Notes under the pieces: model-generated
The model's input: only the letters and a program-made list of their open reading frames with translations
Told to the model about the DNA's origin: nothing
Databases searched by the model: none
Shown here: positions 3,299-21,167 of the stretch, piece by piece
Position numbering within the stretch: position 1 is the stretch's first letter
Layout of the letters: each line of letters starts with the position of its first letter
Position numbers and translations under genes: made by a program
Virus record (IMG/VR): IMGVR_UViG_3300044628_000949
Coordinates: 1-21,167 of that record
DNA length: 21,167 bases
From: a virus
Direction: 5' to 3' (one strand)

Positions 3299-3768
3299 GG
3301 CTTCGCCTCCTTCGCCTTACGGATCGCGGTGACCGCGTCAAACGCCGAATGTAACGACGCGGCATCACCAGCAGACCTCGCCGCAACCCGCGCTTCGTGG
3401 CGCGCTAAAACCCGTACCGCAGCACCCCATGCCTCCCACGCCGCTGGTGTCGTCCGCTCGCTGCACATGATGCGCCACGACTCGCCGTGCCCGTCCTTGT
3501 CCGCTTGCTCTTGGTACTCCGCCAACTCGCGCCACATCTCCGCGAGCGGGTCGTGCGCCTTGAGCGCGGCGACCTCGGCTGCGAGAGCGGCGTTCACCGC
3601 GTTCAGGCTCACGAGGTTCGCGTCGGCCTTCAGCGCGTCGATCTCGACAAGCGCCGCACGAATCGCCGCTGCGAACTCCTCGATGTACTCCGGTCCCCAC
3701 ACCAGCCCGGCGCGCGACTCAAGCTGCGCGCAGCCTTCCTCAAGCATCTTGCGTTGATCGTCGGTCAT
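3295..3768 (-). CDS. hypothetical helical protein
   Basis: A 157-residue, almost all-helical protein. It begins MTDDQRKMLEEGCAQLES; a coiled-coil-like stretch (ALVEIDALKADANLVSL, then ALAAEVAALKAHDPL) lies at about residues 39-76. A C-terminal region reads TTPAAWEAWGAAVRVLARHEARVAARS. The 5' end resembles that of the gene at 2635-2910, including its ribosome binding site GGAGGTGCAGCG. No known family. It is coupled to the Ala/Trp repeat gene upstream (ATGA at 3765-3768) and probably cytoplasmic. Confidence 0.7.
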   Translation of the reverse strand: MTDDQRKMLEEGCAQLESRAGLVWGPEYIEEFAAAIRAALVEIDALKADANLVSLNAVNAALAAEVAALKAHDPLAEMWRELAEYQEQADKDGHGESWRIMCSERTTPAAWEAWGAAVRVLARHEARVAARSAGDAASLHSAFDAVTAIRKAKEAKP

Positions 3769-4157
3769 CGCTGCACCTCCTCAAGCATCCGATCCAGTTC
3801 AGCGCGCTGCGCGGCGCGCTCGGTGTCCCGCGCCGCATCCCGTGCCGCAGCCCACTCCGCAGCCCACGCCGCATACCACGCCGCAGCCCGCGCCGCATCC
3901 CGTGCCGCAGCCCACTCCGCAGCCCACGCCGCATCCCACGCCGCAGCCCACACATCCGCCGCAGCCCGCGCCGCATACCACGCCGCATTCAGTTCCGTGT
4001 CGGTCGCCTCTCCGCGCAGATGCCGCGCCGCGACATCGAGCGCGTTCGTGCTGCGCGGGTCGCTCATCAGGTGGCGCACACGCTCCGCGCACCACAAAGC
4101 AAACTCACGGCGCTGTCTTTCGTTTAGGCGGTCGATTAGTGTGTCGATGTCGGTCAT
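3765..4157 (-). CDS. Ala/Trp-rich tandem-repeat helical protein
   Basis: A 130-residue protein. Residues 1-56 are ordinary (MTDIDTLIDRLNERQRREF...). Residues about 57-114 are a low-complexity helical repeat built from units like AAWAAEWAAARDAAR, with Trp, Tyr, Asp, Glu or Arg every third or fourth position and Ala elsewhere. The last residues (LDRMLEEVQR) are charged. The repeat would form a long amphipathic helix or helical bundle. Similar Ala/Trp repeat stretches occur in uncharacterised phage and bacterial proteins; no function is established to my knowledge. The DNA beneath is a near-perfect 60-base tandem duplication, so the length probably varies by slippage. AAGGAGC precedes the start, after a small hairpin. 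Confidence 0.75.
   Translation of the reverse strand: MTDIDTLIDRLNERQRREFALWCAERVRHLMSDPRSTNALDVAARHLRGEATDTELNAAWYAARAAADVWAAAWDAAWAAEWAAARDAARAAAWYAAWAAEWAAARDAARDTERAAQRAELDRMLEEVQR
3836..3989. repeat. GCCGCAGCC-type short repeats with a 60-base tandem duplication
   Basis: The stretch is made of reiterated 12- to 15-base units of the form gccgca-gcc-cac. Superimposed on them is a 60-base period: the first 34 bases at 3841 are identical to those at 3901. It codes for the Ala/Trp repeat of the overlapping gene and keeps the frame. There are no spacers of unrelated sequence, so it is not a CRISPR array. Confidence 0.85.
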
Positions 4158-4395: not shown

Positions 4396-4661
4396 GCCTG
4401 TCCTCCGTTCCTCCGCGCGCGGAGGGGACTTGCGTCCCCCCCGCTGCGCGGCGCGACCGGCAAGGAGCAGTCCGCCTCCGCGTCGTGCGGCTGTCGCTGC
4501 GGCGATGATAGCACCGCGACCGTCCTCCGCATCCATGCGATCGCCGCAAGCTCGTCCTCGGTGGTCGGCGCGTAGGCCGACGCGATCGCGTCGAACCCGC
4601 GCCGCACTCGGAGCGAGAGCGATGGCCGACGTGCCTTCTTGCTGGTCAGTTTGCGTGTCAC
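4392..4661 (-). CDS. hypothetical basic protein, paralogue of adjacent gene
   Basis: An 89-residue protein, MTRKLTSKKARRPSLSLRV... The first 50 residues align with the product of 4177-4395 (shared pattern: basic N-terminus, PSxSxxVRxGxDxIA, acidic spacer, AIxW). The last 35 residues are a disordered-looking tail rich in Ser, Pro and Arg (APRSGGDASPLRARRNGG), absent from the paralogue. The start overlaps the Gp157 stop (ATGA). Position directly behind Gp157 in the early operon hints at DNA metabolism or regulation, but nothing more can be said. Confidence 0.68.
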   Translation of the reverse strand: MTRKLTSKKARRPSLSLRVRRGFDAIASAYAPTTEDELAAIAWMRRTVAVLSSPQRQPHDAEADCSLPVAPRSGGDASPLRARRNGGQA

Positions 4662-5179
4662 TTGATGTTGATCCTCGTACCGCGCTCCATAAGCGACGCG
4701 AAGTCGAGCGCCTCGCCCGCCTCAAGCCGATCGCGGATCACGTCGGTGTTGGCCTTGACGATCGTCTCGGTCGTGACCGCCCAGCCGGGCAGGTCTTCGA
4801 CGCCGACGCGCAGGTCGAGTTTCGCCTTGCCGCCGACCTTCGCGAGCGAGACGGTGTAGCGCGTCGTCTGCACCTTGGGCAGCGACTTGGCTTCCCATGT
4901 GTGGCGCAGTCGTTCGCGCAGCGCGGCGGCGGCGTTCTCGTCAATGCGCGCGCGCTCGGCGAGTCGCTTGGCCTCGGCCTTTCGCACCTCGGCCCTAGCC
5001 TCGATCTCGGAGATGAGACGGCAGTATGCGTCAACCTTGTCGGAGAGATTGGCTTCGTTTTCCGCGAACCATCCGTCGATGGTGGCCTCGGTGCCCGGCG
5101 TGATTTCGCCTCCGGCTGCGGCGAGGAGCGCGTCGAGCGACTCCATGTCTGCGGTGATGTCAAGAAGGGTGCGGCTCAT
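4658..5179 (-). CDS. Gp157-like phage protein
   Basis: A 173-residue protein matching the layout of the siphovirus Gp157 family (first noted in Streptococcus phages and linked with phage resistance when expressed). A helical N-terminus carries a conserved Trp (ATIDGWFAENEANLSDKVDAY, residues about 32-52). A long charged helix follows (EIEARAEVRKAEAKRLAERA). Then comes a beta-rich C-terminus with TTRYTVSLAKVGGKAKLDLR, VEDLPGWAV, and a final RGTRINIK. In phages this gene usually sits next to recombination functions (annealase, single-strand-binding protein), consistent with this block. Its start overlaps the preceding HTH gene by 20 bases. Confidence 0.82.
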   Translation of the reverse strand: MSRTLLDITADMESLDALLAAAGGEITPGTEATIDGWFAENEANLSDKVDAYCRLISEIEARAEVRKAEAKRLAERARIDENAAAALRERLRHTWEAKSLPKVQTTRYTVSLAKVGGKAKLDLRVGVEDLPGWAVTTETIVKANTDVIRDRLEAGEALDFASLMERGTRINIK

Positions 5180-6201: not shown

Positions 6202-6262
6202 AGGATACACCATCCATCGGCCACCGCAAGCAGATTCCCCGACATTTCGCCAAGATTCCCGT
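6202..6262 (-). promoter_or_regulatory. leftward promoter with 33-base upstream element (P1)
   Basis: On the minus strand TTGCGG (6224-6229) and TATCCT (6202-6207) are separated by 16 bases. Immediately upstream is a 33-base element (6230-6262) starting ACGGGAATCTTGG and containing GGGAAT. The same element, also 33 bases long and abutting the -35, precedes the promoter at 8751-8778, where the spacer is again 16 bases. The match of two spacings and of the element supports a shared regulator-dependent promoter. The -35 box alone is weak. Confidence 0.5.
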
Positions 6263-6378
6263 AGATTCTAGTTATCTGCCGCATTCCGTTCGGCATCCGT
6301 TCGGAAACGGCCTAGGATCGCGTCTGCGGCGTCGGGCGGTCGGACCCTCCCGACACCCTGCCGCGAGACCCGGGCGGC
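6263..6378. other. non-coding interval with short repeats
   Basis: This is the distal part of a 216-base stretch without a gene (6163-6378). It contains a near-repeat of CATTCCGTTCGG and CATCCGTTCGG (6282-6304) and a small hairpin (CCGTT, loop, AACGG, 6297-6310). Nearer the upstream gene is the GC-rich inverted repeat at 6331-6354. I see no open frame with a ribosome binding site. Confidence 0.5.
6331..6354 (-). terminator. possible weak terminator after the 218-residue gene
   Basis: In mRNA sense GTCGGG and CCCGAC form six pairs, with two more GG/CC pairs inside after one mismatch, starting 24 bases past the stop at 6379. There is no run of U after it, so intrinsic termination is uncertain; it may be an RNA stability or processing hairpin. 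Confidence 0.3.
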
Positions 6379-7035
6379 TCACGCGGGCACGGCGGCGGGC
6401 AGGATGCCGCGGGCGGCGAGTCCTCGCACCCCGTACGTCTTCCACCAGTCTCGCGCGGGCATGGGTCGGAGCGGCCGCGTCGGGTCGTCCCGCCACTCGC
6501 CGCGATCGTCGCGCACCTGCTCGTAGTAGCCGCCCTCGGTCGGCGCTGCGCGCACGCGGTCGCCGAGGATGTCGGCGACCGCGAGGAACCACGGGTGCGG
6601 CCACTGCTCCGGCTGCGCGGGCGGGCGCGGCGCGCCCCAGCCGACGAGCGCGTCCACGATCTCGCCAACCTCTAGCGGGTTCGCCGTCAGCACCGCGCGG
6701 CGATCGCGCTCGCGCTCCTCGCGGATCGAAGCCCACTCCTCGGCGCGCTTGGCCTCCTTCAGCGCCGCCTCGCGCGCGAGCTTCTCGCGGTCGACCAGCA
6801 CCACGCGCCGCGGCTCGGGCTGCGCGTCGTAGAACCGAAGGAACTTGCCGGGAATGAACCGCCGCTTGGGGCCGCCGTCAGCAAGGCCGTACTCGTTGAG
6901 CGCGGCCATCGCGCGCAGGAAGTCCAGCCCGGCGCATCGCTGCATGAAGAGCGTCTGGATTTCGGGGTCGTCGTCGCCGCCACGGAACAGCGCGTTCGCG
7001 CGCGCGCGCAACTGGATCAGCTCGTCCTTGGTCAT
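6379..7035 (-). CDS. hypothetical 218-residue protein, possibly replication-associated
   Basis: A 218-residue protein beginning MTKDELIQLRARANALFRGG. Residues about 24-60 hold DDDPEIQTLFMQRCAGLDFL. A strongly charged helix (REKLAREAALKEAKRAEEWA) follows near residues 83-102. The C-terminal part is Pro/Trp-rich (VGWGAPRPPAQPEQWPHPWFL, split around residue 139), ending in ARDWWKTYGVRGLAARGI. I recognise no family. It is a monocistron-like unit: its own promoter (7205-7234), long leader with several palindromes, and a hairpin after its stop. A large leader with inverted repeats and G-tracts next to an early gene would fit an origin-linked replication factor, but that is inference from position only. 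Confidence 0.72.
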   Translation of the reverse strand: MTKDELIQLRARANALFRGGDDDPEIQTLFMQRCAGLDFLRAMAALNEYGLADGGPKRRFIPGKFLRFYDAQPEPRRVVLVDREKLAREAALKEAKRAEEWASIREERERDRRAVLTANPLEVGEIVDALVGWGAPRPPAQPEQWPHPWFLAVADILGDRVRAAPTEGGYYEQVRDDRGEWRDDPTRPLRPMPARDWWKTYGVRGLAARGILPAAVPA

Positions 7036-7054
7036 GTCGTTTCGCTCCTTCTGC

Positions 7055-7068
7055 GGCGCTCATGCGCC
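7055..7068 (-). promoter_or_regulatory. leader hairpin with adjacent ribosome binding site (copy 3)
   Basis: In mRNA sense this is GGCGC, loop ATGA, GCGCC, followed by GCAGAAGGAGCGAAACGAC and the ATG at 7035. Both stem arms differ from copy 1 at matching positions, so pairing is kept. The spacing between GGAGC and the start is longer here than in the other copies. Confidence 0.55.
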
Positions 7069-7075
7069 ACGAACT

Positions 7076-7095
7076 GCGATACGGGTCCGTATCGC
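7076..7095. promoter_or_regulatory. 20-base perfect inverted repeat, operator-like
   Basis: GCGATACGG, two bases, then CCGTATCGC: nine pairs, no mismatch, lying in the untranslated leader of the 218-residue gene. It could be a dimer-binding operator or an RNA stem in the leader. It is eight bases from the hairpin of copy 3. Confidence 0.6.
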
Positions 7096-7108
7096 TCTCC
7101 TTAGACAG

Positions 7109-7132
7109 ACACACACACATATGTGTGTGTGT
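7109..7132. promoter_or_regulatory. 24-base palindromic AC/GT repeat
   Basis: Alternating AC on the left and GT on the right meet at CATATG to give a perfect 24-base palindrome. Alternating purine-pyrimidine DNA of this kind can form cruciform or left-handed structures. It lies in the same leader as the inverted repeat at 7076-7095. It may also be a slippage-prone microsatellite, since the right arm carries one extra GT. Confidence 0.6.
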
Positions 7133-7183
7133 GTCGGGAGTCGCTGTGCGGTGTCACCGAATGGACACGCGCTGTGCGCGACG

Positions 7184-7195
7184 ACCACTTGTGGT
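7184..7195. promoter_or_regulatory. short inverted repeat at predicted transcript start
   Basis: ACCAC, TT, GTGGT. Five-base arms placed where the transcript from the promoter at 7205-7234 should begin, which is a classical operator position. The arms are short enough to be chance, so confidence is low. Confidence 0.3.
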
Positions 7196-7199
7196 GGTA

Positions 7200-7240
7200 G
7201 GGGGGTTTTAGGGGGGAAGGATTCACGCTGTCAAGGGGGG
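7200..7240 (+). other. cluster of three G6 runs, possible G-quadruplex
   Basis: Runs of six G occur at 7200-7205, 7211-7216 and 7235-7240 on the plus strand, with GTGGTGG just before (7191-7197). With that fourth G-rich segment an intramolecular quadruplex is conceivable. The complementary C-runs lie within the spacer and upstream side of the leftward promoter at 7205-7234, so folding could affect it. Confidence 0.4.
7205..7234 (-). promoter_or_regulatory. leftward promoter with consensus -35 (P2)
   Basis: Minus-strand TTGACA at 7229-7234 matches the sigma-70 -35 consensus exactly. TAAAAC at 7205-7210 lies 18 bases downstream and matches four of six -10 positions. The predicted start near 7198 gives a leader of about 160 bases before the ATG at 7035. 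It lacks the 33-base upstream element of the other two promoters. Confidence 0.5.
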
Positions 7241-7334
7241 AAAGACGGCCGATTTCCGATTATGCAGAAGATCGGTGGATATGCAAAGGCGGCGACGGCC
7301 AACGCAGCCGCCGCCGCCCGAGTCGAAGTCGAGA
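7241..7334. other. non-coding spacer
   Basis: The rest of the 300-base gap after the gene ending at 7335. I see no gene and no clear terminator. There is a CGATTTCCGATT-type partial repeat (7249-7261) upstream of the -35, and GCCGCC-rich sequence (7290-7320). Confidence 0.4.
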
Positions 7335-7712
7335 TCATCGTCCACAGTCGCGCTCGCGCGCGCGATAGGCGATGAGCAGCCGCAGCGCGCGGCGCGCCAG
7401 TTCGAACCGCGTCAACGGCTCGATGCCCTCCCAGCGGACCTCGCGCCGGAGGACCGTTCGGCCCGAGCAGCCGACCGCGCGCCCGAGCGCGCGGCGGCTC
7501 GGCCGCAGGTGGTTCGGCATCAGGTCGAGCGTGATGCCGACCTCGGCCAGCCGACGCACCTCCAGCGAGAGCTGCACGTCGGCGCGGATGATCCGGGCGA
7601 TGCGGATCGCCTCGTCAAGGTCTACCGCGTGGAAGATGGCCGGGTCTTCCTGCTCGATGTCGAGCAGAGATCGCATCGCGTGCACCGATGCCTCGTCCAC
7701 CCGCTCATCCAT
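7335..7712 (-). CDS. hypothetical 125-residue protein, possible HTH
   Basis: A 125-residue protein beginning MDERVDEASVHAMRSLLDI. The N-terminal half is acidic and helical (FHAVDLDEAIRIARIIRADV). The second half is basic and contains RRALGRAVGCSGRTVLRREV near residues 72-91, spaced like a helix-turn-helix (A-L-x-x-A-V-G-C-S-x-x-T-V). GGAGG lies seven bases upstream of the ATG, and the start overlaps the RecT stop. It may be a regulator co-made with the annealase; I do not recognise a family. Confidence 0.68.
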   Translation of the reverse strand: MDERVDEASVHAMRSLLDIEQEDPAIFHAVDLDEAIRIARIIRADVQLSLEVRRLAEVGITLDLMPNHLRPSRRALGRAVGCSGRTVLRREVRWEGIEPLTRFELARRALRLLIAYRARERDCGR

Positions 7713-8604
7713 GACCCACCTCCGCGATGCGGTCGATGACCCGCTTGCCAGCGCTGTTCGTCGTGTAGGCCGCCTCCATCGCCACCTTGAAGGCTAGGTT
7801 CGCCTCGATCGACTCGGCCAACGTGGCGTCGATGACCGCGTACGGCCGCTCGTCGCCTTCCACGTCGACGCGATGCACGGCACCCTTCGGCGTCGTCACC
7901 TTGGCGATCCGAGTCTTGGCCGCGGTGAGCAGCACGGTCGACGGTGCCTTCGGCGTCGGCGCGTCCGATCCGCCGTCGATCGGAATCTCGACGGGCGCGG
8001 CTGGCGGCGTCGGCACGGGCGACAGGAGCCGCTCCGTGTCCGCGCGGCGCTCCTCGCGCGTCGGCGCTGCTGGCAGCGCCTTGCGCGGCGGCGGCGGCGG
8101 CGGCGCGTCCTCCGTGATCTCCGTCTCCCCGTGGGCCTCGACGTACACGGGCGCGGCCCCGAGCGCGTCGGGGCAGTGGGTCTTGTAGCCCGCGCTGATG
8201 CACCGCGCGAACAGCATCGCGCGCGTGTACCTGCGCCAGTTGTCACCGCCAAGCCCAGCCCGCTTGGCATCCTCGACCGAGAACGAGGACGAGCCGATCT
8301 TCTGGCCGCCCGAGTAGAAGTCGATCGTGCAGACCGTGTCGTCCGACTGCACCACGCGGTAGTCGTACTTGCCGCTCCGCTTGATCGCGGCGGCCATCAG
8401 GTTCGATGAGAGGACGGCCTTCCCCTTGATGATGTGGAGGCCAGACATCGCGTCGAAATCCCCGATGCCGAGGCCGCGGCCGATGATGATCTTGGTCGCG
8501 GCCGCTGCCTCCGACTGGATGTCGGGGAACATTCCCGACGCGCGGAAGATCTGCGCCGTGGTCATCGGGTCGAGCTGCGCGCCGTGTCGTACCAGGTCAC
8601 TCAT
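7705..8604 (-). CDS. recT: RecT-like single-strand annealing protein
   Basis: A 299-residue protein resembling RecT-family annealases, which coat single-stranded DNA and pair homologous strands during phage recombination and concatemer formation. Supporting segments from residue 31 are SEAAAATKIIIGRGLGIGDF, then DAMSGLHIIKGKAVLSSNLM, then AGLGGDNWRRYTRAMLFARC with ISAGYKTHCPDALG near 136-149, a pattern typical of the family core. A Pro-rich linker follows at about 167-205 (PPPPPP). A C-terminal domain (about 225-299; YAVIDATLAESIEANLAFKV) looks like a small separate module. The start at 8604 has GGAGG eight bases upstream. No partner exonuclease is seen in this window. Confidence 0.83.
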   Translation of the reverse strand: MSDLVRHGAQLDPMTTAQIFRASGMFPDIQSEAAAATKIIIGRGLGIGDFDAMSGLHIIKGKAVLSSNLMAAAIKRSGKYDYRVVQSDDTVCTIDFYSGGQKIGSSSFSVEDAKRAGLGGDNWRRYTRAMLFARCISAGYKTHCPDALGAAPVYVEAHGETEITEDAPPPPPPRKALPAAPTREERRADTERLLSPVPTPPAAPVEIPIDGGSDAPTPKAPSTVLLTAAKTRIAKVTTPKGAVHRVDVEGDERPYAVIDATLAESIEANLAFKVAMEAAYTTNSAGKRVIDRIAEVGHG

Positions 8605-8692
8605 CGGAGCCACCTCCGATCAGCGAGGCGATGAGTCCCGGCACGACGAGCGCGCCCACGAAAACGAGAGGTGTCAGGTCGATGTCTGGCAT
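8597..8692 (-). CDS. 31-residue membrane micro-protein
   Basis: The sequence begins MPDIDLTPLVFVGALVVPGL and continues ASLIGGGSDE, with a membrane helix at about residues 7-26. It is the first gene behind the promoter at 8751-8778 and has the recurring hairpin and GGAGC leader. Its end overlaps the RecT-like start by eight bases, so it may also serve as a leader peptide coupling RecT translation. A tiny membrane-active peptide is the alternative. Confidence 0.6.
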   Translation of the reverse strand: MPDIDLTPLVFVGALVVPGLIASLIGGGSDE

Positions 8693-14834: not shown

Positions 14835-15420
14835 CGTGCCCTCTCGACGTGACGTCTCATCCAGTCGTGTCTATCGGCGGTTCCGTCGCTGCCGTTCGCA
14901 GCGAGACGGAGGTGCTCCTCGAACTCGCCGCAGGTCAGGTCGAGCGGGTTGCCGAGTCCGGGCGCGGCGCGCGCGATCAGGTGCGCCAGCGCCATCCAGT
15001 CGCGCGGCGCTTCCGGAAGCGCCGCGCCTACAGAGGGTTTGCCGCCGCGGCGGCCTCCCTGTACCTGTCGACGTCGACTCCGAGCGCGGCGATCGCGTGC
15101 ATGGACGCCTCGGAAATCTCGACGGCTGCGAGGAACGCCTCGGCGTCGTCGCAGCACGCCGCGAGGACCATCGCGGCACCAGACAGGTTGAAGCAATGGA
15201 GGACCAGCGAAGATGCGCGCCGCGCCGCCTCGCGCGCGTCCTGCGCCACCTGCATCGCCTCCCTGTGCGGCATCCCCACCGCCTTCGCGTCGCGCAGGAT
15301 TTCCGCGGCCTTGTCCTCCGTCAGCTGCTCCGAAAGCGCGATCCTCTCGCGCACGGTCAGCGGGCGAAGCGTGAAGGACCGATCACCAGCGTTCACCACC
15401 CACGGGGCCACACGGATCAT
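14831..15420 (-). CDS. tail assembly chaperone GT fusion by -1 frameshift
   Basis: By slipping one base back at AAACCCT (15034-15040), ribosomes would join the first 129 residues of the G-like protein to 67 residues of the overlapping frame that ends at 14831, making 196 residues. The extension begins SVGAALPEAPRDWMALAHL and has LDLTCGEFEEHLRLAAN, helical like GpT-type extensions. In lambda the G and GT proteins chaperone the tape measure before tube assembly, and the GT stop here overlaps the tape-measure start. An internal ATG (MALAHLI) could give a separate T protein, but its only GGAAG lies inside the hairpin. Confidence 0.75.
15002..15040 (-). promoter_or_regulatory. programmed -1 frameshift signal (slippery site plus stem)
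   Basis: In mRNA sense: heptamer A-AAC-CCT in the zero frame of the G-like gene (pattern X-XXY-YYZ), six bases (CTGTAG, including the zero-frame stop), then a 26-base perfect palindrome at 15002-15027 with arms GCGCGGCGCTTCC and GGAAGCGCCGCGC. As RNA this gives about 11 pairs with a CCGG loop. Spacing and strength fit a stimulatory stem. Confidence 0.82.
15028..15420 (-). CDS. tail assembly chaperone G-like protein
   Basis: A 130-residue protein beginning MIRVAPWVVNAGDRSFTLRP with LTVRERIALSEQL, the usual opening of tail chaperones that recognise the tape measure. The middle is helical (AAEILRDAKAVGM, then AQDAREAARRASSLVLHCF); it ends YREAAAAANPL. AAGGAGA precedes the start at 15420. Its place between the tail tube and tape-measure genes, plus the frameshift site at its 3' end, makes the assignment firm although sequence similarity alone would not. 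Confidence 0.78.
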   Translation of the reverse strand: MIRVAPWVVNAGDRSFTLRPLTVRERIALSEQLTEDKAAEILRDAKAVGMPHREAMQVAQDAREAARRASSLVLHCFNLSGAAMVLAACCDDAEAFLAAVEISEASMHAIAALGVDVDRYREAAAAANPL

Positions 15421-18256: not shown

Positions 18257-18473
18257 CGTGTCTCCTTCCCCTCTTCTTCGGCCTGACGCTCGGCGTGGTG
18301 GAATCCACGAACAGCGGCGCAGGCTCGGCCGCGCGCATCGCCAGCCCGCGAGATACGAGCATCTGCGCGACCGTCTCCGTCGCGCTCACCACCGCGCCCG
18401 GGCGAAGCACGCGCCGCCCGACGCTCGGATCGGGCACCGCGCAGTTCTTGAGGACGATCAGAAGTTCTTGCAT
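18219..18473 (-). CDS. small basic protein between glycosyltransferase and connector
   Basis: An 84-residue protein: MQELLIVLKNCAVPDPSVGR, then RVLRPGAVVSATETVAQMLV and a Pro/Arg-rich tail (VRPKKRGRRHDGGIRDGTHD). The start at 18473 has GGGAGG eight bases upstream and overlaps the previous gene by 16 bases; the longer frame is a shadow. The N-terminal half (residues 1-50) looks like a small beta domain such as those following head genes; the tail is probably disordered and could bind DNA. No family recognised. Confidence 0.65.
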   Translation of the reverse strand: MQELLIVLKNCAVPDPSVGRRVLRPGAVVSATETVAQMLVSRGLAMRAAEPAPLFVDSTTPSVRPKKRGRRHDGGIRDGTHDAS

Positions 18474-19474
18474 TCGGCTGGCCTCCCGTCGTCCTGGTAC
18501 TTGGTGACGTACTGGTGGATCGTCCGCAGGTCTTCGCCCGGCCACGTCACGATCAACTGAAGATGGCCGATGCGGACGCGCGGCGTGACGCACAGGCGAT
18601 TGCCCGACTCGGCGAACCGCTTCCAGAAGTAGATGTCATCGTCGGTCTTCTCGCCCGTCCAGCCACCCTCCGCGTTCGGGACGCCAAGGAACCAAGGCTT
18701 GGCCATCCGTCGCAGCGCGTCGGTGCGGATGAACGTGAGGCCGAAGTGCCCCGTCTCGCATGGGATCACCTGCCTGCGGAACTCCGTTGCCTCCACCCGC
18801 GTCATCCTCTTCCCGTCGCCGTCGACCATCGACAGAAGGCAGTGCTCGCGGTCGCGGCCGATCTGGAGCGGGAACAGCGCGTCCACGTCGGGATTCTGCT
18901 CCATGATCTGCCACATACGGACGATGTCCTCCGCGTCGAAGATCGAGTCGTAGTCGATCGTCAGGATGTACTTGCGCTTGTCGTCGGCGCAAATCTGCTC
19001 CATCATGCGCTGGAGCACCTGCCCCCAGAACACGCCAACGCCCTTCACGAAGTCGATGCCGAGCTTGGCGCACGCGAGGTGCGTCGCGCCCATCGTGTCG
19101 GTCCACGCGATGCGCGGCATGGACATGAGCGCCTGAACCTCGGTCATCGGTAACTTGGGGATCGGAGTCTTGACGCGGCGCGCAACGACGCGCAGCCAGT
19201 CGCCGTCCTCCCAGCGCGTCCCGTTGACGCCGCCCGCGATCTCCCACCCGGCGAGGCTCAAGACCTTCGCGAGCTTCTCGCGGTTCCAAATGGAGCGGTA
19301 CTTGCCGCGCGCGAGGCAGATTTCCTCGACGCTCCCCGTCCCATCCTCGTAAGCCTTGACCGCCGCGTCGAAGTTCGGCACGTCGAAACGCGCCTCATCT
19401 CCATCCACCGACCGCGCCGCCGCGACCTCCTCGCCACTGACGGCCATCGCCAGAATATCGTTCGCATCCTTCAT
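18458..19474 (-). CDS. GT-A fold glycosyltransferase-like protein
   Basis: A 338-residue protein. The start at 19474 is supported by AGGAGG seven bases upstream. Residues 1-110 are an unassigned N-terminal part. From about 115 the pattern is that of GT-A glycosyltransferases: MEQICADDKRKYILTIDYDS, with Asp-Tyr-Asp (DxD-type) at 174-176 for metal-nucleotide-sugar binding, then PLQIGRDREHCL, then ETGHFGLTFIRTDALRR, then GEKTDDDIYFWKRFAESGNR and RIGHLQ (His304, the usual metal-ligand position near the end). It probably transfers a sugar to a virion protein, DNA or host glycan; the acceptor cannot be read from sequence. It interrupts the head gene series. Confidence 0.78.
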   Translation of the reverse strand: MKDANDILAMAVSGEEVAAARSVDGDEARFDVPNFDAAVKAYEDGTGSVEEICLARGKYRSIWNREKLAKVLSLAGWEIAGGVNGTRWEDGDWLRVVARRVKTPIPKLPMTEVQALMSMPRIAWTDTMGATHLACAKLGIDFVKGVGVFWGQVLQRMMEQICADDKRKYILTIDYDSIFDAEDIVRMWQIMEQNPDVDALFPLQIGRDREHCLLSMVDGDGKRMTRVEATEFRRQVIPCETGHFGLTFIRTDALRRMAKPWFLGVPNAEGGWTGEKTDDDIYFWKRFAESGNRLCVTPRVRIGHLQLIVTWPGEDLRTIHQYVTKYQDDGRPAECKNF

Positions 19475-19514
19475 GGGTTCGCCTCCTGCCGTATGTATCG
19501 GCAGCAGCAGAATA

Positions 19515-19546
19515 GCGGCCCTGCGCGATCGCGCGCGCAAGGCCGC
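19515..19546 (-). terminator. GC-rich hairpin after the small virion gene
   Basis: In mRNA sense GCGGCCTTGCGCG and CGCGCAGGGCCGC pair over 13 positions with one T-G wobble, and a six-base loop. It follows the stop at 19568. No U-run follows, so partial termination or RNA 3' protection is more likely than full stop. A smaller hairpin CTGCCG/CGGCAG lies just before the next ribosome binding site. Confidence 0.45.
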
Positions 19547-19567: not shown

Positions 19568-19993
19568 TCAGACCTGCGCGACGAATGCAGCGCCGATCTC
19601 GGACGCGGTCGTGCAGCCGTCCGCGGGGAGGCTGAGTTCCGCCATGATGATCGCCTCGGTGGTCGCGTGCGGCGTGAACAGGACGTTCAAGTACCGCTTG
19701 CGGCCGCGAAGATCGACGTCGTACACGATCTTGGCGAGCGCCGTGCTCTGCGTGGTGGTCACGGGCGTGAAGCCAGTGCCAGCCTGCGTCGCGGCGATGC
19801 TCGTCCAGTTGGTGCTGTTGTCGTCGTTCTCGCGGACCACGTTGTTCGTGGCGACCGTCGAGACGCCAGCGCTGGTGTTTCCGATGCAGTAGAGACGCGC
19901 GAAGGCGAATCCACGGGTGTCGATCGTCGCCGTGAGCTGGGACGCGTTGGTCGCGCTGATGGCTCCGATGACGAACTTGCTGTTCTGTCGCAT
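19568..19993 (-). CDS. small virion protein, possible head decoration
   Basis: A 141-residue protein beginning MRQNSKFVIGAISATNASQL. Segments TATIDTRGFAFARLYCIGNT, then VVRENDDNSTNWTSIAATQA and RGRKRYLNVLFTPHATTEAI match a small beta-rich phage structural family I know by pattern ('a..ATIDT.G......l......N.....l..qe.dd...T..'). Its place directly after the capsid gene, with its own ribosome binding site (AGGAAGGAA) and flanking hairpins, fits a protein made in large amounts such as a decoration or head-fibre protein. The role is inferred. Confidence 0.65.
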   Translation of the reverse strand: MRQNSKFVIGAISATNASQLTATIDTRGFAFARLYCIGNTSAGVSTVATNNVVRENDDNSTNWTSIAATQAGTGFTPVTTTQSTALAKIVYDVDLRGRKRYLNVLFTPHATTEAIIMAELSLPADGCTTASEIGAAFVAQV

Positions 19994-20073: not shown

Positions 20074-21167
20074 TCAGAGCGTCATCTTGACCATCGCGCC
20101 CGAGGCGGTCGAGCCGCCCACGTTCGCGCAAACGATGTCGAACCGCTCGGTGCCGCGGACCGCGATCTCGTCCTGCTCGAACGCGTTGAGCGCCGAGTCG
20201 GAGAACGCGATCGAGTTGGCCCGGCGGTCGCCGAAGTACGCGGCCTGACGGAGGTCGCCGATGTACGCGAAGGTCGCGCCGCCAGACTCGCTGACGGGGA
20301 TGACCTGCGCGAACTCGACCGGGTAGCCGAACCAGCGCGGAGCAGTCAGTCCGTTCGCGAACTCCGCGGCGGTGACGCCGCCAGCGCCCAACGCGAGCCG
20401 CTCAAAGATCGCGTGGAACGCGTTCTTGGAGCAGTAGACCTTGATGTTGTTCCGCTGCGCCGCCCAAGCGGGAAGCTTGCGGAGGCCCGCCGCGAGTTCG
20501 ACAGCGGTGACGGCAGCATAGGTCGTCGCTCCACCGTCCGACACCTGATAGGTGGCGTCGGTCAGCGCGTTCGCGAGGCCGACGATGCCGCCGTAGGTCG
20601 ACGTGCCGTCGCCGTTGAAGCCGCAGTCGTCCTCCTTAAAGCTGAACGCGTACGCGATCTCACCTGCGATGTCGTCGCCGATGTTGATGACCGCATCCTC
20701 GTTCAGTTCGTTCGACACGGTCGTGAGCACGCCGAGCTTCTTCGCGGTGAGCTGCACCGAGTCGAAGACCTGCTGGCTCTCGGTGATGGCCGCGGCCTCG
20801 CCGACGAAGTACGCGTTCACGGTCGACGCGCGCTTGCTGAAGCGGAGCGTGTCGCTCGACATCGGCTTGATCGTCGCGTTGCGGCGGAAGACGCCGTACT
20901 GCTCGCGCAGGGTGATCAGCTCGTTGTCGAACTGCTCTGGGACGAGGAAGCCGCCCGCGCTGTTCACGCCCTCGCTGTGGCCCTTGGTGCGGATGAGCGA
21001 GAGGCCGTTGTCCTTGCAGAACTGCGCGGACTTCTGGTGACCCATCGCGGCAAGGCACCACGCGCCGAACTTGTAGGCGCTCTCCTTGCTCTTGAGGTTC
21101 TTGACCGAGCCGTAGACGCGGGCCGACTCCCAGACGGGATTGGGCTTCGCGTCGAGATTCGCGTGAA
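20074..21167 (-). CDS. HK97-fold major capsid protein, N-terminus beyond window
   Basis: About 363 residues are visible. The frame stays open to the right edge upstream of the first internal ATG (21045), reading for example RVYGSVKNLKSKESAYKFGA, so the true start lies outside the window. Signature segments are GGFLVPEQFDNELITLREQY, AITESQQVFDSVQLTAKKLG followed by VLTTVSNELNEDAVI, DDCGFNGDGTSTYGGIVGL, and the closing DIVCANVGGSTASGAMVKM. These are typical of the HK97 family coat, the protein that builds the shell. The upstream part should include the delta/scaffold region. Its stop is followed by a strong hairpin. Confidence 0.92.
   Translation of the reverse strand, partial: HANLDAKPNPVWESARVYGSVKNLKSKESAYKFGAWCLAAMGHQKSAQFCKDNGLSLIRTKGHSEGVNSAGGFLVPEQFDNELITLREQYGVFRRNATIKPMSSDTLRFSKRASTVNAYFVGEAAAITESQQVFDSVQLTAKKLGVLTTVSNELNEDAVINIGDDIAGEIAYAFSFKEDDCGFNGDGTSTYGGIVGLANALTDATYQVSDGGATTYAAVTAVELAAGLRKLPAWAAQRNNIKVYCSKNAFHAIFERLALGAGGVTAAEFANGLTAPRWFGYPVEFAQVIPVSESGGATFAYIGDLRQAAYFGDRRANSIAFSDSALNAFEQDEIAVRGTERFDIVCANVGGSTASGAMVKMTL

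Follow-up and report, generated by a model that had tools for sequence, protein, structure and literature searches.

A conserved minus-strand promoter and structured untranslated leader that probably head the replication operon of an uncultivated phage

Hairpins of the nascent transcript lie beside phage operon promoters at putL and putR of phage HK022. The put RNA is about 70 nucleotides (nt) long, has two stem-loops and exerts a demonstrated effect on RNA polymerase (PMC9378689). In phage SPP1, the origin oriL lies within the gene that precedes the helicase loader gene (PMC6316719). A long untranslated structured leader before a phage gene is described for the filamentous phage SW1 (PMC4762005). 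Here the non-coding block at positions 7036-7240 of the virus record IMGVR_UViG_3300044628_000949 was analysed. The record is identical with the window, the whole 21,167-base stretch, whose numbering is used throughout. Nearly all genes of the window are on the minus strand, and the block falls in the gap between the start codon (ATG) of one gene at 7035 and the stop codon of the next at 7335. An earlier note on this DNA had proposed either a replication origin or a highly regulated leader. The leader described below resembles that of SW1 in type. In contrast to the HK022 put RNA, it is about 164 nt long and comprises about six predicted hairpins.

The block is most probably a minus-strand promoter followed by a structured untranslated 5′ leader, together forming a control region at the head of the phage replication operon. 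Support is good for the promoter and the leader, for their conservation and for a non-random structure of the leader. Transcription from promoter P2 would start near 7199 on the minus strand, as predicted from standard promoter spacing, and the first ~164 nt of the transcript would remain untranslated. The predicted leader folds into a chain of hairpins ending just ahead of the ribosome-binding site of a gene for a helicase-loader-like protein, whose ATG has its first base at 7035 (minus strand). From this anatomy, the block may set the timing and strength of replication-operon expression, with the hairpins possibly determining mRNA stability or ribosome access. The leader would work as part of the mRNA, by way of elongation, decay or the access of ribosomes, and its role would go beyond that of a DNA site. 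Its dyad, GCGATACG-N4-CGTATCGC, might in addition bind a dimeric regulator.

The elements on which the earlier note had relied were re-examined, and all of its repeats, palindromes and G-runs were found where it had placed them. The consensus -35 that it reported exists as a perfect TTGACA; the strand is minus (7234-7229), with CTAAAA following after 17 nt (7211-7206). The three G6 runs of the plus strand coincide with promoter C-tracts of the coding strand, at 7235-7240 before the -35, at 7211-7216 before the -10 and at 7200-7205, where the tract fills the discriminator. A C-rich discriminator suggests sensitivity to the growth state of the host, as in stringently controlled promoters. The 20-base inverted repeat at 7076-7095 reads GCGATACGG-GT-CCGTATCGC and has 9-bp arms. 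The 24-base AC/GT palindrome at 7109-7132 is perfect (ACACACACACATATGTGTGTGTGT) and extends to 7108-7135 with 12-bp arms. ACCAC-TT-GTGGT is present at 7184-7195, but the register kept by relatives is 7184-7198 instead. The density of elements, which had drawn attention to the block, stood in part: short inverted repeats were not exceptional (48/200 bases against shuffle maxima of 45-69), whereas 12-bp arms were: they occur at three places in the window, the block among them, and 20 Markov-shuffled versions of it gave none. The longest inverted repeat of the window is a 26-bp perfect palindrome between tail genes (15002-15027), perhaps a terminator or operator.

The block is exceptional because of the folding energy of its minus-strand transcript and its conservation, and not because of the density of short inverted repeats. 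For the leader transcript the folding energy is -75.5 kcal/mol (z -5.9), a value that none of 200 shuffles reached. A conserved leader peptide between hairpin H4 and the gene was considered and rejected by inspection, as neither start codon nor frame is kept across relatives. A bistable three-segment RNA switch of the anti-Shine-Dalgarno type was also rejected; the window did no better than shuffles (fraction 0.57), and the test was suggestive only in group B (see below) and in contigs L064 and L129.

Related loci were collected with the RecT-like protein encoded upstream as bait, which yielded 54 viral loci. The comparison set comprised contigs whose RecT is at least 57% identical along most of the protein and which have sufficient DNA downstream; the sequences of L011 and L016 stop too soon to tell. 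The C-tract promoter, TTGACA-N16/17-CTAAAA, was found at the same place and in the same direction in 17/17 such contigs. A scan with the promoter pattern added L166, L089, L129, L104 and L118. The promoter-leader unit occurs once per genome and is common to roughly 18 uncultivated phages. Identity across relatives was 80-98% in the promoter and 66-97% in the 5′ half of the leader, mostly above that of the flanking DNA. In the diverged relatives (L006-L166), the promoter was 80-88% and the 5′ leader half 66-85% identical to the window; the corresponding values were 48-72% in the loader gene and 49-65% in the spacer upstream. With a covariance model built from the leader's first 65 nt, each group A or B genome gave one match and the rest of the 0.97 Mb of sequence compared gave none; the next match had an E-value of 0.16. 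The repeats are conserved in relatives, as the earlier note had asked to be checked. In favour of its reading of a highly regulated leader stand a conserved promoter, a structured 5′ untranslated region, a start codon and a ribosome site, which all lie on the minus strand and recur in relatives.

The same promoter was also seen in other settings. In L104 (801-1200) and L118 (near 10042, minus strand), which have a G+C content (GC) of 0.46-0.47 and no related gene on the contig, it precedes non-coding stretches of about 230-340 nt. In L064 (from 11126) and L129 (near 7455, minus strand), the leaders behind it have stems of (GA)n/(CT)n, and a homologue of the window's capsid-side gene (19568-19993) is the first to follow. 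As a lead to the host, the promoter pattern was rejected; its 1 match in 84,980 genomes, in a proteobacterial metagenome-assembled genome without a related phage gene, was read as chance. The second promoter-like site, P1, was absent from the earlier note. Alignments judged by eye indicate that it is kept in the closest relatives and replaced in others. Ahead of P1, in minus-strand order, a GC-rich inverted repeat follows the gene for a 125-residue protein. Its counterparts in L006 and L007, of 10 and 13 bp, lead into T-rich DNA and have a terminator-like look; a terminator scan of the window returned none between this gene and P1.

Three leader architectures were distinguished. Group A (the window, L003, L006, L008, L010 and L166) has the CA/TG hairpin and the dyad. 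Group B (L005, L007, L013, L014 and L197) has, in place of H4, a (TA)n tract and a hairpin of 17 bp into which the dyad's 5′ half is drawn. Group C (L012, L015 and L017) is shorter and has the CA/TG hairpin without the dyad; in L015 and L017 a GGAG ribosome site lies within the 3′ flank of this hairpin. Measured between promoter and ATG, the leaders of groups A and B span 156-170 nt; those of group C are about 105-110 nt long. Groups A and B were analysed separately, as RNAalifold on all 11 leaders mixes two architectures. Compared with column shuffles, the consensus fold had z -7.6 for the transcript and -6.7 for the complement in group A, z -7.05 and -4.75 in group B, and z -4.7 and -2.0 for all leaders. 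Individual leaders likewise beat dinucleotide shuffles, and mostly more clearly as transcript than as complement (12/15 leaders).

These comparisons bear on an alternative in which the palindromes are mainly DNA operators for one or more dimeric regulators around P2, RNA folding being a by-product of their symmetry. The transcript exceeded the complement, relative to shuffles, in those 12 leaders and in 3/3 consensus tests, and a long hairpin persists at the place of H4 although its sequence is wholly different between groups. Both results argue against operators as the main function, as does the presence of the dyad only once per genome. The invariance of H1 fits an operator, as do the dyad arms, which are invariant around a variable centre, and the retention of both dyad halves in group B, though the predicted RNA fold there uses one only. 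On balance, this alternative is considered unlikely. A dyad serving as a multi-copy operator was rejected on its single copy per genome. A protein-binding role for the H5 dyad, as DNA or RNA, is favoured by its single copy per genome, by the constancy of its arms around a changing centre and by the retention of both halves in group B. An operator at H5 is possibly a live addition to the RNA reading.

Several observations weigh against the reading of the block as a promoter with a leader acting through RNA structure. The complement strand, too, folds better than shuffles, so the palindromes are possible as DNA sites. The leader of a distant relative, L055, folded no better than shuffles (z -0.8). 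No covariation was seen in H1, whose stem is invariant in the 11 leaders. In the group B hairpin two pairs are changed on both sides, yet 66/500 shuffles of the four sequences equalled that. The window helix GTCGC/GCGAC is GTCCT/AGGAC in L166; overall, both-side pair changes are few and do not go beyond shuffles, and formal covariation is thin. The start of the P2 transcript is a predicted position and not a mapped one, and the assignment of the loader rests on Z scores below 8. Action of the leader as an RNA structure is accordingly favoured but not proven.

A further possibility is that the leader works on the elongating RNA polymerase, as a put-like RNA for antitermination or attenuation. 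Hairpins directly behind a phage-operon promoter occupy the position of HK022 putL (PMC9378689). In L089 (886 down to 545, minus strand) the same promoter leads into a leader in which a GC-rich hairpin and a T-run precede the loader homologue and may form an attenuator. With this terminator-like hairpin between promoter and gene, the transcript must therefore pass a terminator there. In the window, however, no strong terminator lies behind the leader, the leader is longer than the ~70 nt of put, and neither sequence nor covariance-model comparison gave a match. A put-like function is quite unlikely on this evidence. A new family of RNAs that act in cis on the polymerase in a put-like manner, by antitermination or attenuation, standing before the replication operons of a clade of uncultivated phages and coupled to an uncommon C-tract promoter that unrelated phages also carry, is similarly doubtful.

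The earlier note's other proposal was a replication origin. The block would be, or contain, an origin whose palindromes are bound by the upstream helix-turn-helix (HTH)-like protein and at which the helicase loader works, after the model of lambda O/P or SPP1 gp38/gp39. The claim that the block lies between replication-era genes was borne out, with RecT upstream and the helicase-loader-like protein downstream. Its place next to a loader-like gene and behind a possible DNA-binding protein resembles the SPP1 oriL-gene 38/39/40 region (PMC6316719). Group B leaders contain a short (TA)n tract, and with a GC of 0.59 the leader is below related genomes (about 0.66). Unlike SPP1 oriL, however, the block carries a promoter and a ribosome site, and it is conserved in register with both. 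Direct repeats (iterons) were absent from 4.0-9.2 kb except for coding low-complexity ones, the window contains no AT-rich unwinding element (the GC of the block is 0.59), and group C lacks the dyad. Cumulative GC skew, which the earlier note had named as a check, has no extremum at the block, either in the window or in five relatives 34-36 kb long. The missing extremum is weak evidence, as many phages show no skew and records may be fragments. The earlier note would have given up its proposal had the skew minimum and the start of replication lain elsewhere and the repeats not been conserved; there is no skew minimum at the block, but the repeats are conserved. Taken together, an origin at this block is very improbable, and the promoter with its structured leader is retained as the explanation.

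The first gene of the transcript encodes a 218-residue protein that is helicase-loader-like and not a proven loader. Its structure model has a mean predicted local distance difference test score (pLDDT) of 80.7. The top two structural neighbours of the N-domain are both helicase loaders of phages, lambda P (Z 7.3) and SPP1 G39P (Z 6.8), over about 70/218 residues and below the caution line of Z 8. Foldseek matched the protein to G39P with a probability of 0.77 and a poor E-value (above 1). The helicase-loader family PHROG 2289 gave weak matches in 4/12 family members (best E 0.005). The intergenic stretch behind this gene (6214-6378) is nearly identical in L003 and L005 and has CCGAACGG and GAATCT repeats. 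The 125-residue protein upstream gave no significant structural match. Head-tail and tail genes run from the capsid gene down to 9085. Within the head gene module, a 360-residue protein (18458-19540; PHROG 1574, unknown function) has a glycosyltransferase-like look by eye. A tandem repeat with periods of 12, 24, 36 and 60 nt (3827-3987) lies inside a 130-codon open reading frame (3765-4157, minus strand) and encodes an Ala/Trp-rich, AAWAAARDAARA-like repeat.

Rfam returned no match to the leader, the weak matches being far under gathering scores. The DNA of the element had no match in 50,697 phage records, and among plasmids only a 30-base match, read as chance. Among cultured phages, no protein match was found for the 218-residue protein or a 463-residue protein, and the RecT matches were distant ones only. 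As far as these tools reach, the element is undescribed in the databases and literature searched, a non-exhaustive set, yet it belongs to a known class, that of structured leaders of phage mRNAs.

Table 1. Coordinates of the control region, its predicted elements and the neighbouring genes.
Feature	Position	Strand	Evidence or remark
Upstream promoter-like site P1, TTTGCA-17-CATAAT	7259..7287	-	scan, 0.1 expected in shuffles
Promoter P2, TTGACA-17-CTAAAA	7206..7234	-	kept in all relatives
Three C6 runs on the coding strand (G6 on plus)	7200..7240	-	conserved
Untranslated structured leader, ~164 nt	7036..7199	-	folding z, consensus-structure z, covariance-model matches to first 65 nt
Hairpin H1, ACCAC-CACAA-GTGGT, 5-nt loop	7184..7198	-	stem invariant in 11 leaders but for one G-U
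Hairpin H2, CGCGC-ACA-GCGCG	7168..7180	-	longer-range helix in its stead in some relatives
Hairpin H3, GTGTC...GACAC	7151..7168	-	site of the most conserved leader sequence
Hairpin H4, CA/TG stem, 12 bp (the AC/GT palindrome)	7108..7135	-	extendable by flanks CTCC 7140-7137 and GGAG 7100-7097
H5 dyad, GCGATACGG-AC-CCGTATCGC	7076..7095	-	hairpin and/or operator
Hairpin H6, GGCGC-ATGA-GCGCC	7055..7068	-	just ahead of ribosome site
Ribosome-binding site, AAGGAG	7045..7050	-	sequence; position kept in relatives
Helicase-loader-like protein, 218 residues, first gene of transcript	6379..7035	-	structure model, PHROG
All-helical protein, 125 residues, HTH-like segment, always next upstream	7335..7712	-	predicted
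RecT-like single-strand annealing protein	7705..8613	-	PHROG 561, E 2.2e-13
Gam-like protein	4658-5179		PHROG 253
Major capsid protein	20074-21165		

For a group of phages that lacks cultured members, the analysis brings out a conserved promoter-plus-leader module not described before, and it links a palindrome-rich block with replication-gene control. A block with the look of an origin was sorted out through strand, promoter and comparison with relatives. Should the leader prove to work on RNA polymerase, put-like RNA control would gain another example beyond the lambdoid phages.
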